A DNA stretch of 64,000 nucleotides from Oceanicola sp. (lineage in GTDB: Bacteria > Pseudomonadota > Alphaproteobacteria > Rhodobacterales > Rhodobacteraceae), in assembly GCA_022447275.1 (NCBI GenBank), contig JAKVBK010000011.1, positions 1-64,000 on the forward strand, in the 5' to 3' direction. Below are positions 37,913-45,060 of this stretch, one piece after another. A program made the position numbers and the translations under genes. Below the pieces are notes generated by a model, which was not told where the DNA came from, made no database searches, and worked only from the letters and a program-made list of their open reading frames with translations. Positions within the stretch are counted from its first letter, which is position 1. Each line of letters opens with the position of its first letter.

Positions 37913-40528
37913 ATGCCCGTCGTCGTCGTCGAATCCCCGGCAAAAGCCAAGACGATCAACAAGTATCTCGGCTCCGATTATACGGTTCTGGCTTCCTACG
38001 GACATGTCCGTGATCTGCCGCCCAAAGACGGATCCGTGAAGCCCGATGACGGGTTCGAGATGCTGTGGGAAATCGGTGCAGACAGCAAAAAGCATGTGAA
38101 GGCCATCGCGGATGCCCTTGCCGACGACAACAACCTGATCCTCGCAACTGACCCGGATCGCGAAGGGGAGGCGATCAGCTGGCATCTTGAAGAAGCGCTG
38201 CGCAAGCGGCGGGCCATCAAGAAGGACACGCCGGTCAGCCGCGTTGTATTCAACGCCATAACCAAGGCCGCCGTAACGGAGGCGATGGAAAATCCCCGAC
38301 AAGTCGATCAACCGCTCGTCGAGGCATATCTCGCCCGCCGTGCGCTCGACTACCTTGTCGGCTTCAACCTGTCGCCTGTTCTGTGGCGCAAGTTGCCCGG
38401 CGCCAGATCCGCTGGTCGTGTGCAGTCTGTTTGCCTGCGCCTGATTGTCGAGCGTGAGATGGAAATCGAGGCCTTCCGCCCGAAGGAATACTGGCAGGTG
38501 AAGGCACAGCTGGAAACGCCGCGTGGCCAGGCCTTTGAGGCCCGGCTTGTCACGCTCGCGGGCGCCAAGCTGGAACGCTACGACATTCCCACGGCCGAGG
38601 CCGCCGAGATCGCCGTTCAGGCCGTGGCTTCGCGCCCGCTGACAGTCACGGCTGTCGAAGCCAAGCCCAGCAGCCGCAACCCGGCCCCGCCCTTCATGAC
38701 GTCCACCCTGCAGCAGGAAGCATCGCGCAAGTTCGGCATGGGCGCCCGGCAGACAATGAGTGCCGCACAACGCCTCTACGAAGCAGGCCACATTACTTAC
38801 ATGCGAACCGACGGGATCGACATGGCACCGGAAGCTGTGGCCGCAGCCCGTGAGGCAATCACCGAATATTACGGCGCATCCTTCACGCCCAAAGAGGCAC
38901 GGGTCTATAAGAATAAGGCCAAGAACGCGCAGGAAGCGCACGAATGCATCCGGCCCACGGACATGTTCGCCAAGCCTGAGCAACTCAAAATTGCCGATCC
39001 TGATCAGCGCAAACTCTATGATTTGATCTGGAAGCGTACGATTGCGTGTCAGATGGCGGCTGCACGCCTTGAACGCACAAGCGTCGATATCGGATCGGCG
39101 GATGGCCAGATCGGTCTGCGCGCCACCGGCCAGGTGATCACCTTCGAGGGCTTCCTCAAAGTGTATGAGGAAGGCCGCGACGATCAAAGCGGCGATGACG
39201 AAGGCGGGCGCCTGCCCCAGATCATGCAGGGCGAAGCTGCCAAGCTCGGCGCCGCTTTGCCCGCAGCCGCCGATGGCCGTAAATCGGTGGCGGCTGGCGA
39301 CGGTGCGGTGCAAGGCCTGCAGAGCTTTACCCAGCCGCCCCCGCGCTACACGGAGGCGACCTTGGTCAAACGCATGGAAGAGCTGGGCATCGGACGCCCC
39401 TCTACCTACGCCTCGATCGTCACCACGATCCAAGACCGTGACTATGTGCGCAAAGAAAAGAACCGCCTGATACCAGAGGACAAAGGCCGCCTGGTGACGG
39501 CTTTTCTGTTCAACTATTTCCGGCGCTATGTGGGCTACGAGTTCACCGCTAATCTTGAGCAGGATCTCGACAATGTCTCAGCCGGTGATGCCGTCTGGAC
39601 AGACGTGCTGAGCCGGTTCTGGCGCGATTTCAAAGCCGCTGTCGATGAGACGGCGGAACTGCGGATCACCGAGGTGCTGGAAAAGCTCAACGAGGTGCTC
39701 GAGCCCCATCTCTTCCCGCCCACCGAAGACGGGAGCGACCCCCGCACCTGCCCCAATTGCGGTGCAGGGCGGCTGTCTTTCCGGACCGCCCGGTCCGGCG
39801 GGGCCTTCATCGGCTGCTCGAATTACCCCGAATGTCGCTACACGCGCCCGTTCGGCCCACCGTCTGCGGAAGGCGAAGGGGCGGGCATCCCGCCGGATGG
39901 CAAACTGCTGGGCACGGACGAGGGCGACGAAATTCGCGTCTTCAAGGGCCGCTTTGGCCCCTATGTGCAGCGGGGCCCTGTCACCGAAGATATCCCCAAA
40001 CCCCCGCGCCAATCCGTGCCGAAAGGCTGGGTGCCAGAAGAAATCTCGCTGGCACAGGGTGTGGCGTTGCTGGCGCTGCCCCGCCAGATTGGCCCGCATC
40101 CCGATGATGGTGTGATGATCTGGTCAAACATCGGACGCTACGGGCCTTACCTCAAACATGCGGAAACGATCAGCTTCAAGGGCGGCACCAATGCCAACCT
40201 CGACAGCATCGAAGAGGTGTGGGAGATCGGAATGAACCGGGCGGTTGAGGTCCTGGCCTCCAAACCCAAACGCGGCAAGCCCGCGCCGGCAACCCCACTC
40301 GCGAGCTTGGGCGAACATCCCGAGGCAGGCGGCGAAGTGAACGTGATGAAAGGGCGCTACGGCCCCTATGTCAAATGGGGCAAGGTCAACGCAACGTTGC
40401 CCGAAGGCGTAGAGCCTGATCAGATCACCATGGCGCAAGCGATCGAGTTGCTGGATGCGAAGGCCGCTAAGAGCGGAAAAAAGCGGCCCGCAGCCAAGAA
40501 AAAGACAGCCGCGAAAAAGAAAAAGTAG
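37913..40528 (+). CDS. topA: DNA topoisomerase I
   Basis: 871 residues. TOPRIM domain at the start (VVVVESPAKAKTINKYLG, ILATDPDREGEAISWHL), catalytic tyrosine in GHITYMRTDGID, one C4 zinc ribbon (CPNCG ... CSNYPEC) and two or more topoisomerase C-terminal repeats with the FKGRFGPYVQRG type segment, then a lysine/alanine-rich tail (KKRPAAKKKTAAKKKK). It relaxes negative supercoils. AAAGGAA lies ahead of ATG 37913. dprA upstream and topA is a frequent pair. Confidence 0.97.
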   Translation: MPVVVVESPAKAKTINKYLGSDYTVLASYGHVRDLPPKDGSVKPDDGFEMLWEIGADSKKHVKAIADALADDNNLILATDPDREGEAISWHLEEALRKRRAIKKDTPVSRVVFNAITKAAVTEAMENPRQVDQPLVEAYLARRALDYLVGFNLSPVLWRKLPGARSAGRVQSVCLRLIVEREMEIEAFRPKEYWQVKAQLETPRGQAFEARLVTLAGAKLERYDIPTAEAAEIAVQAVASRPLTVTAVEAKPSSRNPAPPFMTSTLQQEASRKFGMGARQTMSAAQRLYEAGHITYMRTDGIDMAPEAVAAAREAITEYYGASFTPKEARVYKNKAKNAQEAHECIRPTDMFAKPEQLKIADPDQRKLYDLIWKRTIACQMAAARLERTSVDIGSADGQIGLRATGQVITFEGFLKVYEEGRDDQSGDDEGGRLPQIMQGEAAKLGAALPAAADGRKSVAAGDGAVQGLQSFTQPPPRYTEATLVKRMEELGIGRPSTYASIVTTIQDRDYVRKEKNRLIPEDKGRLVTAFLFNYFRRYVGYEFTANLEQDLDNVSAGDAVWTDVLSRFWRDFKAAVDETAELRITEVLEKLNEVLEPHLFPPTEDGSDPRTCPNCGAGRLSFRTARSGGAFIGCSNYPECRYTRPFGPPSAEGEGAGIPPDGKLLGTDEGDEIRVFKGRFGPYVQRGPVTEDIPKPPRQSVPKGWVPEEISLAQGVALLALPRQIGPHPDDGVMIWSNIGRYGPYLKHAETISFKGGTNANLDSIEEVWEIGMNRAVEVLASKPKRGKPAPATPLASLGEHPEAGGEVNVMKGRYGPYVKWGKVNATLPEGVEPDQITMAQAIELLDAKAAKSGKKRPAAKKKTAAKKKK

Positions 40529-41520: not shown

Positions 41521-42561
41521 GTGGACGAAACCAAGGGCAAACACCGGCCGGTCATCGGCTCTGTCCTTACCGATGCTGAAGCAGCCATCGGGTTTGCTGG
41601 TGCTGCCGTCTCCATGGTGGTGACAAACCCCCATATCGACGACAACCCGATCGTCTATGTAAATGACGCCTTCGAACGCATGACCGGCTACTCGCGTTCG
41701 GCCATCATTGGCCGCAATTGCCGTTTTTTGCAGGGCCCTGACACCAATCCAGAGGATGTCACACGGCTGCGCCATGCGATTGCCGAAGAGCAGGAAATCT
41801 CGATCGATCTGCTCAATTATCGCGCCAATGGAGAGCCCTTTGTGAACCGTCTGATCATCGCGCCCGTGCGCGGTGATGACGGCAATCCCAGCTATTTCAT
41901 CGGCATCCAGAAAGAGATGCGCGAGGGCGACAAATCCGAGACAGATGATCTGGACATGCGCCTGCGCGCCGTCCAGAGGCAGGTCAAAGATCACCTCTCG
42001 ATGGTCATCGGAATGATCCGGGCGCAAACCCGCCGGACCTCCGCGCCCGCTGAATTCGCCGCCCTGTCCAGGCGAATCGAATCTCTGCAGTTGCTCTATG
42101 AAGAAATCACCTTTGCAGGCGACAACGCCGCAAAGAACAAGGTCGAACTGGGCACATACCTGGCCCGCGTTGCCAATGGCATCTCCTACCACGAGGGCCG
42201 CGCCGGCGTCCGCGTGGTGATCGATATCGACACTCTGGAGACAGGCGTTGACGCGGCCGCGCGGCTCGGCCTGATCATGACAGAGGTGCTCACGAACTCG
42301 TTCCGGCATGCCTTTGTCGGGCTTGAGCGCGGCCTTGTCGAGGTGCGGATGTCGCGCTTGGCCGAGGGCGGTTTGCGCCTGACCGTTGGAGATGACGGCG
42401 TGGGCATCCCAGAGGGCGAGGTGTGGCCCTCCACCCAGTCGATGGGTGGCAGAATTCTCAATGGTCTCATCGAGGTGCTGGACGGCACGTTGATGATTGG
42501 CCGCGGCGCCGCCGGAACGGTGGTCACGATCGAAGTCCCCGTTGGCGGGGAAGACGACTAA
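41521..42561 (+). CDS. LOV-domain sensor (pseudo?) histidine kinase inside the sco operon
   Basis: 346 residues from GTG 41521, 3 bases after scoA. Residues ~20-130 are a LOV photoreceptor domain with the photoactive cysteine C67 in GRNCRFLQGPDTN, the paired Asn of LNYRANGEPFVNRL and the later FIGIQ glutamine, all expected for FMN binding and blue-light sensing. The HisKA_2-type region follows, but where EVHHRVKNNL is expected, the sequence is AVQRQVKDHL (151-159), so the phosphoacceptor His is missing; H158 is the only nearby His. The HATPase part (TEVLTNSFRHAF, GDDGVGIPEG) looks intact. No response regulator is adjacent. Confidence 0.9.
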   Translation: MDETKGKHRPVIGSVLTDAEAAIGFAGAAVSMVVTNPHIDDNPIVYVNDAFERMTGYSRSAIIGRNCRFLQGPDTNPEDVTRLRHAIAEEQEISIDLLNYRANGEPFVNRLIIAPVRGDDGNPSYFIGIQKEMREGDKSETDDLDMRLRAVQRQVKDHLSMVIGMIRAQTRRTSAPAEFAALSRRIESLQLLYEEITFAGDNAAKNKVELGTYLARVANGISYHEGRAGVRVVIDIDTLETGVDAAARLGLIMTEVLTNSFRHAFVGLERGLVEVRMSRLAEGGLRLTVGDDGVGIPEGEVWPSTQSMGGRILNGLIEVLDGTLMIGRGAAGTVVTIEVPVGGEDD

Positions 42562-43298: not shown

Positions 43299-44447
43299 TC
43301 ACGTGGCCCGCCCCTCCGCCTGTAGTCCGGTAATCTGTCTCAAATGGGCCACGTCTGCGCGGACGCGTTCGCGGATGGGGCCCTCGCGCGGGGCATCTTG
43401 CAGGGTATCAATCAGCTCCGGCGCCGGAGTACGCCGCGCCCGTGGCACCCCATGCCACTCCAGCGCGGCCAGGACCTCACGCGCCTGCACGGGCAACCGA
43501 TCTGGCATGTCATGGTTGTTGAGCACGCCCCAAACCCCGGTCCAAAGCCTGCCCACCGTCCAGGGATTGTAGCCCCCTCCGCCCAGAACGAGATAGCGCG
43601 GGCTGAGCGGGCGCAGAGCCGCGACGGCAGAGAAATGAGCCCGGTTCGAAAGGGCCAACCGCGACAGGGGATCCTCGAGCACCGCATCGGCTCCGCATTG
43701 CAGCACCACCGCATCCGGTTGGAACTGCGTCACGAGCGGCACGATCAGTTCCTCGAGGATCATTGCAAACTCAGTGTCGTTGAGCCCACGTGGCACCGGC
43801 AGGTTCACGGCAGAGCCCACCTTGCCCAGAGGCCCCGTCCGCGGCCACCGGTTTTCCTCATGGACAGAGACAAGCAAACACTCGCGATCTTGCGCCAATC
43901 CGGCCTCGACACCGTCACAGTGATGGGCATCGATATCCACATAGGCGATGCGCTGTGCCCCATGTGCCCGCAGCGACAGGATCGAAAGCACCGGGTCATT
44001 GAGATAGCAAAAACCGCCAGCGGCATCGGGCATGGCATGGTGGGTTCCGCCCGCCGGGTGATGCACGATCCCCCCCTCTTCGAGCAGCATGCCCGCCAGC
44101 ATGGAGCCCCCTGCAGAGGTGGCGGGCCGGCGCCACATTTCGGGGAATACCGGGTTCGCATGGGTGCCAATATTGTGCCGGGCCCGCACGGCATCGCTCA
44201 CCGCGCCCTCCTGCTCGGCGCGGTAGAGGGCAGCCACATATTCCGGCGTGTGCCACACATGGAGCGCCTCAGGCTTTATCCGAGGCGCGCGCAGAAATTG
44301 GCCCGGCGCCACCCAACCCAAGGCGTGCGTCAAATCCAGGACGGTAGACACCCGCGGCACGCGCAAAGGGTGGTATGGCCCGTAGGAGGAAGCCCGGTAG
44401 ATCTCGTGCCCGATGAGGATTGGCCGCTCCGAGGCAGGCCTTCGCAA
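43299..44447 (-). CDS. AcuC-type histone deacetylase family protein
   Basis: About 382 residues. HDAC fold with the catalytic dyad HHPAGGTHHAMP, metal ligands in VDIDAHHCDG and the GADAVLEDPL and GGGGYNPWTVGR segments. Bacterial AcuC-like enzymes remove acetyl groups from lysine, e.g. of acetyl-CoA synthetase, or act on acetylpolyamines. The start is not clear: no ATG precedes the conserved ILIGHEIYR closely, so I use TTG 44447, which has no good ribosome site. An ATG at 44528 would overlap the upstream glutathione peroxidase gene by about 50 bases. Confidence 0.85.
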   Translation of the reverse strand: MRRPASERPILIGHEIYRASSYGPYHPLRVPRVSTVLDLTHALGWVAPGQFLRAPRIKPEALHVWHTPEYVAALYRAEQEGAVSDAVRARHNIGTHANPVFPEMWRRPATSAGGSMLAGMLLEEGGIVHHPAGGTHHAMPDAAGGFCYLNDPVLSILSLRAHGAQRIAYVDIDAHHCDGVEAGLAQDRECLLVSVHEENRWPRTGPLGKVGSAVNLPVPRGLNDTEFAMILEELIVPLVTQFQPDAVVLQCGADAVLEDPLSRLALSNRAHFSAVAALRPLSPRYLVLGGGGYNPWTVGRLWTGVWGVLNNHDMPDRLPVQAREVLAALEWHGVPRARRTPAPELIDTLQDAPREGPIRERVRADVAHLRQITGLQAEGRAT

Positions 44448-44475
44448 TCGGGTTGGCGGGTCCAGTGCCTGTGTC

Positions 44476-45060
44476 TTAGACAGGGGCGGCAAGGCTTTGC
44501 TCAATCGCCTGCAGCAGCCTGGGCGCATCGGGACGCACCGCTGCGGGCCAGTCTTTGACCGCGCTGCGGTCTGCACCGATGAGCACCTTGTGGAAATTCC
44601 AGCGCGGGCGCACCCCATGCGCCTGCGCGAGCCATTTGTACAGCGGATGCGCCTTGCGCCCACGCACAGGGGTGATGTCCGTCATTGGCAGGGTCAGCCC
44701 ATAGTTGATGTCACAGAATTCCTTCACGCTTTCAGCATCTTTCAATTCCTGCCGAAAGTCATTGCTGGGAACGGCCAATACGAAAAGCCCGGCCTCACCA
44801 TAGGTTTCGTGCAACATCTGCAGTCCCGCCAACTGGTTCGTGAAGCCGCATCTGGAGGCCGTATTCACCACAAGGATCGGACGCCCCTTCAGCGCATCGA
44901 GGGCGATCATACCCCCATCGATCGAGGGGAATTGCAGCCCGTCCGGCAGCCCCGCAGGCCGCATGTTTTGGCTGCCAGCAGCCAGCGCAATAAACGTTCC
45001 AGCGGCCACGCCAAGGCGCAAAGCCAGTCTCCGTGAAAGCCCCGTTGCATGTTTTGTCAT
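44476..45060 (-). CDS. Exported glutathione peroxidase (Cys type)
   Basis: 194 residues. ILVVNTASRCGFTNQ with C71 at the peroxidatic site (Cys in place of Sec), PSNDFRQE and the WNFHK segment, as in the GPx/BtuE family. The N-terminus MTKHATGLSRRLALRLG followed by VAAGTFIALAAG looks like a Tat signal with the twin Arg at 10-11, so it is probably exported, unlike most bacterial GPx proteins. GGGGGAGGAC lies ahead of ATG 45060. It probably reduces peroxides with thioredoxin or a periplasmic thiol. Confidence 0.9.
   Translation of the reverse strand: MTKHATGLSRRLALRLGVAAGTFIALAAGSQNMRPAGLPDGLQFPSIDGGMIALDALKGRPILVVNTASRCGFTNQLAGLQMLHETYGEAGLFVLAVPSNDFRQELKDAESVKEFCDINYGLTLPMTDITPVRGRKAHPLYKWLAQAHGVRPRWNFHKVLIGADRSAVKDWPAAVRPDAPRLLQAIEQSLAAPV

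Follow-up and report, generated by a model that had tools for sequence, protein, structure and literature searches.

Organization of the locus

In the window, a 64,000-nt stretch of a contig from Oceanicola sp., a gene for a LOV protein lies between the two subunit genes of a predicted CoA-transferase, and all three genes are on the forward strand (Table 1). The LOV gene follows scoA after 3 nt and is followed by scoB after 20 nt; re-reading the window bore out the coordinates, strand, gaps and GTG start given in a preliminary description of the sequence. The scoA product scores 230 bits against TIGR02429 (cut-off 128.5) and the scoB product 329 bits against TIGR02428 (cut-off 243.6), and scoA orthologues in relatives are 80-90% identical. 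By both subunit models, the two products would form a 3-oxoacid CoA-transferase (ScoAB), the substrate being a prediction. A scan of the region for promoters and terminators returned signals no commoner than chance, except for a GC-rich hairpin 3' of topA. No PpsR-type operator lies near scoA; the whole window holds two matches to TGT-N12-ACA against 7.1 expected, neither of them near position 40500. Convergent with scoB is a histone-deacetylase-family gene (43299-44663, reverse strand; Pfam Hist_deacetyl, 213 bits).

Table 1. Features of the topA-sco region, in window coordinates.
Feature	Position	Strand	Basis
topA, conserved anchor upstream of the locus in relatives without sco genes	37913..40528	+	70-75% identity
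scoA, 3-oxoacid (succinyl-CoA:3-ketoacid) CoA-transferase subunit A (predicted), 234 aa	40813..41517	+	TIGR02429 and Pfam CoA_trans above cut-off
Putative LdaP orthologue, LOV plus degenerate HWE/HisKA_2 kinase module, 346 aa, GTG start	41521..42561	+	phmmer, Foldseek, clade
LOV domain, residues ~26-135; FMN adduct Cys67, with Asn66, Arg68, Gln71, Asn99, Asn109, Gln130	41596..41925	+	
Codon 153 (AGG, Arg) at the HWE/HisKA_2 phosphoacceptor His position	41977..41979	+	alignment to EL346
CA (ATP-binding) domain, residues ~205-341; N-box E255, N259, H263; G1 D291, G293, G295; G2 G309, G310	42133..42543	+	
scoB, 3-oxoacid CoA-transferase subunit B (predicted), 208 aa	42582..43208	+	TIGR02428 and Pfam CoA_trans above cut-off

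LOV and ATP-binding domains

The best full-length phmmer match of the window protein is EL346 of Erythrobacter litoralis (4r3a, E 1.5e-83), and Foldseek with an AlphaFold2 model (pLDDT 78, built on a 14-row alignment) again places 4r3a at the top (E 6e-32). The two proteins share fold and domain order over their whole length, and their LOV and ATP-site residues are identical. The LOV domain had been described as complete, with C67 in GRNCRFLQ, an Asn pair and a Gln, and Cys67, Asn99, Asn109 and Gln130 are indeed all there. In an alignment of 88 orthologues, Cys67, Asn66, Arg68, Gln71 and Asn99 are invariant in all 88, and Asn109 and Gln130 in all 50 members of the clade that contains the window protein. 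The N, G1 and G2 boxes of the ATP-binding domain are likewise intact, and each of the residues E255, N259, H263, D291, G293, G295, G309 and G310 is retained in 49 or 50 of those 50 members. Of the earlier HisKA_2/HATPase label, the second half holds, with HATPase_c at 33.1 bits (cut-off 26.4), while the HisKA_2 segment is degenerate and falls below its cut-off (17.6 bits against 22.3), compared with 46-47 bits in three orthologues that keep the phosphoacceptor His. A second LOV-like gene of the same genome (L002; G000:C21, 2-1045, reverse strand) is cut off; its motif reads GKNCRVLT, the usual Gln being replaced, and the adjoining ORF resembles a FIST sensor protein.

Loss of the phosphoacceptor histidine

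EL346 is a working kinase with its phosphoacceptor at His142 (as cited in PMC10890935), whereas the window protein has Arg153 at this position; the acceptor motif is QHRVKNHL in the former and QRQVKDHL in the latter. The acceptor His is kept in 38 of 38 kinase-type relatives, all of which also keep the subsequent Arg, Lys, Asn, His and Leu of the motif, and in none of the 50 clade members, where Asn, Ser, Asp, Gly, Arg, Ala, Glu or Thr stands instead and the Lys and Asn positions of the H-box are freely variable. At the position of the second His of the H-box (residue 158), 48 of the 50 carry Asp; the window protein and L017 keep the His. From this pattern, the conserved Asp may be a mark of the PpsR-binding form discussed below. 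The window protein retains both Lys156 and His158, unlike most of its clade.

Because synonymous sites are near saturation, dN/dS by domain was set aside and relative protein distances were used in its place. At matched divergence, the DHp segment outpaces the remainder of the protein in the His-less group (relative distance about 1.2) and lags behind it in the kinases (0.85-0.89); in the smallest divergence bin, the values are 0.90 and 0.54, the latter from three kinase pairs only. On an unrooted tree of the orthologues computed without the H-box columns, one change of state separates the 50 His-less sequences, including the window protein and Dshi_1135 of Dinoroseobacter shibae, from the rest. 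The window protein and L017 lie at the base of this clade, and the join between them and the other His-less rows has an SH-aLRT of 97 in one tree and support of 89/91 in another, which makes a second, independent loss unlikely. Apparently, then, the acceptor His was lost once in the clade. The His-bearing kinases embedded in scoAB fall outside the clade, so the insertion between scoA and scoB probably predates the loss of the His, on a tree that is unrooted but whose outer kinases, like EL346, keep the residue.

Relationship to LdaP of Dinoroseobacter shibae

The orthologue at locus L010, whose gene sits between scoA and scoB, is a protein of 338 aa with GRNCRFLQ at residues 58-65 and Arg148. 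These protein features match the published Dshi_1135/LdaP exactly (PMC10890935), and L010 was therefore taken as LdaP. The window protein is 55-56% identical to it and belongs to the same His-less clade. In addition, the two are alike in length class, LOV motif, replacement of the acceptor His by Arg, a scoA-ldaP-scoB neighbourhood downstream of topA (L010, L166), and a PpsR/PpaA circuit in the genome. They differ in the H-box, which reads VQRQVKDHL, with Lys156 and His158, in the window protein and VQRRVRQDL in LdaP.

According to the available part of PMC10890935, LdaP binds FMN and has a photocycle that depends on its Cys, does not autophosphorylate in two assays, and contacts PpsR by co-purification and two-hybrid analysis; a colourless transposon mutant of D. 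shibae is also described. In the published model, dark LdaP binds PpsR, so that PpsR repression is relieved and the photosynthesis gene cluster is transcribed. ScoA and ScoB are not among the enriched partners listed there for LdaP, and in the same part of the paper we found no mention of the sco neighbours of ldaP. The label of sensor kinase in the preliminary description does not hold, since the acceptor His is gone in the whole clade and the D. shibae orthologue does not autophosphorylate (PMC10890935).

Two further systems are comparable. AppA of Rhodobacter sphaeroides, as described in PMC10890935, is a BLUF-type blue-light flavin protein and, like LdaP, an antirepressor of PpsR, but its architecture is unrelated to the LOV domain and kinase relic of LdaP. 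A His-less subgroup of EL346-like LOV-HKs, which shares with the window protein the LOV-HK architecture without a phosphoacceptor His, is noted in the available part of PMC10359499 with no function, genome context or PpsR link given there.

The PpsR circuit in the genome of the window

The genome from which the window derives carries pufL and pufM (C12), together with a PpsR gene (C12:92326-93645) whose product scores 494 bits against a cut-off of 275 and has PAS and Fis-type HTH domains. Adjoining it is the gene of a B12-binding PpaA-like protein, divergent from a gene that reads as bchF. The interval from ppaA to bchF contains four TGT-N12-ACA sites (L165, 16576-16821), the same number as reported for D. 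shibae, and the 19-kb stretch with these sites holds 10 in all against 2.2 expected. The genome context in which LdaP would act, namely PpsR, a photosynthesis gene cluster and predicted PpsR-type sites, is thus present in the genome.

Distribution of the LOV gene and of its His-less form

Among 397 sampled genera, 41 have a LOV orthologue (threshold E 1e-40), and in 27 it lies between scoA and scoB. The search for other genomes with this order, proposed in the preliminary description, was therefore positive. Where the LOV gene is absent, scoA and scoB abut or overlap by one base in most of the genomes checked, which, together with the 27 genera, argues that the arrangement is not due to chance.

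The His-less form occurs in 19 genera, and all 19 are reaction-centre positive, versus 167 of the 397 overall (hypergeometric 4e-8, a value that ignores kinship). PpsR scores over its cut-off in 18 of the 19; the exception, G267, is a genome that is 77% complete. Those LOV matches of the genus sample that were at first left unclassified (L169-L174) keep the His. When 45 further genomes were added, 49 of 49 classifiable His-less sequences came from reaction-centre-positive genomes and 48 of these 49 from genomes with PpsR over the family cut-off. Of the His-bearing kinases embedded in scoAB, 8 of 13 are found in genomes that have no reaction centre.

Within two genera, g314 and g270, the occurrence of ldaP mostly coincides with that of the reaction centre. 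In g314, LdaP is found in 14 of 15 reaction-centre-positive species and in none of 6 negative ones (Fisher 1e-4); the sole LOV match of G667 retains the His. Another genome of this genus, G493 (L118, L154), has a reaction centre and PpsR but no LdaP, the single LOV protein matched there being of the His-bearing type. In g270, LdaP is present in 17 of 17 positive species and in one of two negative species (G657, but not G654). In G657 alone (L158, G657:C1:1436294-1445292), a full-length LdaP occurs without any match to the reaction centre; the assembly is a single contig, so that a photosynthesis cluster on a plasmid may have been missed. In a kinship-aware count of independent pairs on supported branches of a ScoA+ScoB tree, the association is one-directional and not significant, the pairs being few because the tree is poorly resolved.

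Separation of the sco genes from ldaP

The topA gene, at 70-75% identity, also lies upstream of the LOV gene in L084, L085, L087, L158-L163, L166 and L168, and it marks the position of the locus where the sco genes have gone. In L084, L085 and L087, the LOV gene follows topA and the sco genes are absent. In g270, the stages of decay beside topA can be followed while ldaP remains full-length: scoA is intact and scoB absent in L158; only residues 113-229, 184-234 and 197-227 of scoA are left in L159, L160 and L162, respectively; and no scoA is left in L161, L163 and L168. Six such genomes (G623, G657, G522, G536, G428 and G525) have an intact, contiguous scoAB elsewhere (L136, L140, L143, L145, L146 and L148). 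This stepwise decay of scoA beside a retained ldaP indicates that selection kept ldaP while letting the flanking sco genes go. The sco neighbours look like old company of LdaP, not its target.

In two genera, the scoA-scoB junction holds other cargo, about 2 kb long: a gene of the GSCFA family with a companion ORF in G188 (L157, L133), and ORFs resembling these in G020 (L164, L128).

Proposed function of the window protein

Based on the results presented above, we consider it likely, with a probability of about 0.84, that the window protein is LdaP, a former kinase without its acceptor His that acts as a phosphorylation-free LOV antirepressor of PpsR, and that the sco genes are passengers. Our direct basis here is sequence, clade, distribution, operator-type sites and sco decay; the FMN photocycle, the absence of autophosphorylation, PpsR binding and antirepression are facts of D. 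shibae (PMC10890935). That the function is the same in the organism of the window is inferred from orthology at 55-56% identity, the shared clade, the shared neighbourhood and the complete PpsR circuit; at this identity and with a basal position in the clade, the protein may have lost the His independently or may have another partner. In the proposed mechanism, the LOV pseudokinase would bind PpsR in the dark and prevent repression of the photosynthesis gene cluster; blue light would produce the Cys67-FMN adduct, PpsR would be released, and the cluster would be shut off. As the acceptor His is gone, no phosphate transfer would be involved. The ATP pocket is intact and probably still serves for a nucleotide with a structural or regulatory role, a reasonable guess by analogy with two HWE/HisKA_2 structures in which ATP bridges domains (PMC10359499). 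A further, tentative suggestion, which we hold to be possible but doubtful, is that the strictly kept pocket provides a second signal: PpsR release would be gated jointly by light and by nucleotide binding or energy charge, in a clade-wide phosphorylation-free switch that arose through one His loss. As to the position of the gene, an ancestral LOV kinase gene would have been inserted between scoA and scoB and the position inherited, ldaP later sometimes outliving the sco genes.

The sco operon might still matter through expression: LdaP would act on PpsR, and its position would make the LdaP level depend on ketone-body or PHB metabolism, giving derepression during the use of carbon stores. The gene order retained across many genera, with short gaps or overlaps in many of them, would fit co-transcription; however, simple inheritance explains the order, several genomes keep ldaP without sco genes, and the region near scoA has no PpsR-type site, which leaves this reading improbable. 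It is very improbable that the protein is a still-active kinase with another acceptor residue, e.g., His158 of the old H-box. In favour of this reading, the ATP-binding residues are fully kept and Lys156 and His158 survive here, unlike in most of the clade; against it, 48 of 50 members have Asp in place of His158, and LdaP does not autophosphorylate in two assays (PMC10890935). The least probable reading is the link between light and acetoacetate or polyhydroxybutyrate turnover suggested in the preliminary description, in which a light-regulated sensor kinase steers the co-encoded CoA-transferase: the tight scoA-LOV-scoB order, which 27 of the sampled genera show and which extends to His-bearing kinases of non-phototrophs, speaks for it, but the acceptor His is absent, g270 loses the sco genes around a kept ldaP with intact scoAB elsewhere, the occurrence of the gene instead follows that of PpsR and the reaction centre, the D. 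shibae orthologue binds PpsR with ScoA and ScoB not among the enriched partners listed (PMC10890935), and we found no link between scoAB and LOV proteins in the open-access literature.

Implications for LOV signalling

The function of LdaP in D. shibae (PMC10890935) and the existence of a His-less EL346-like subgroup (PMC10359499) were already known from these papers. Judged against the open-access literature, three points appear to be new: the conservation of the neighbourhood, the single loss of the His in proteins whose ATP site stayed intact, and the connection of the His-less subgroup with phototrophy. Antirepression of PpsR is a likely role for the EL346-like LOV kinases that lack the acceptor His, and the reading predicts blue-light control of photosynthesis via LdaP in about 20 genera, not in one strain. 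The orthologues would also form a natural series, from the kinase through a basal His-less form to a derived form with the conserved Asp158, which is useful for studying how a signalling kinase can turn into a protein-binding switch without giving up its ATP site. The most decayed kinase module encountered among the orthologues is that of L081 (G231), a His-less and scoAB-embedded protein in which the N-box is also broken (EVVHAKLTT) and the G1 box carries an insertion, with the LOV Cys intact.
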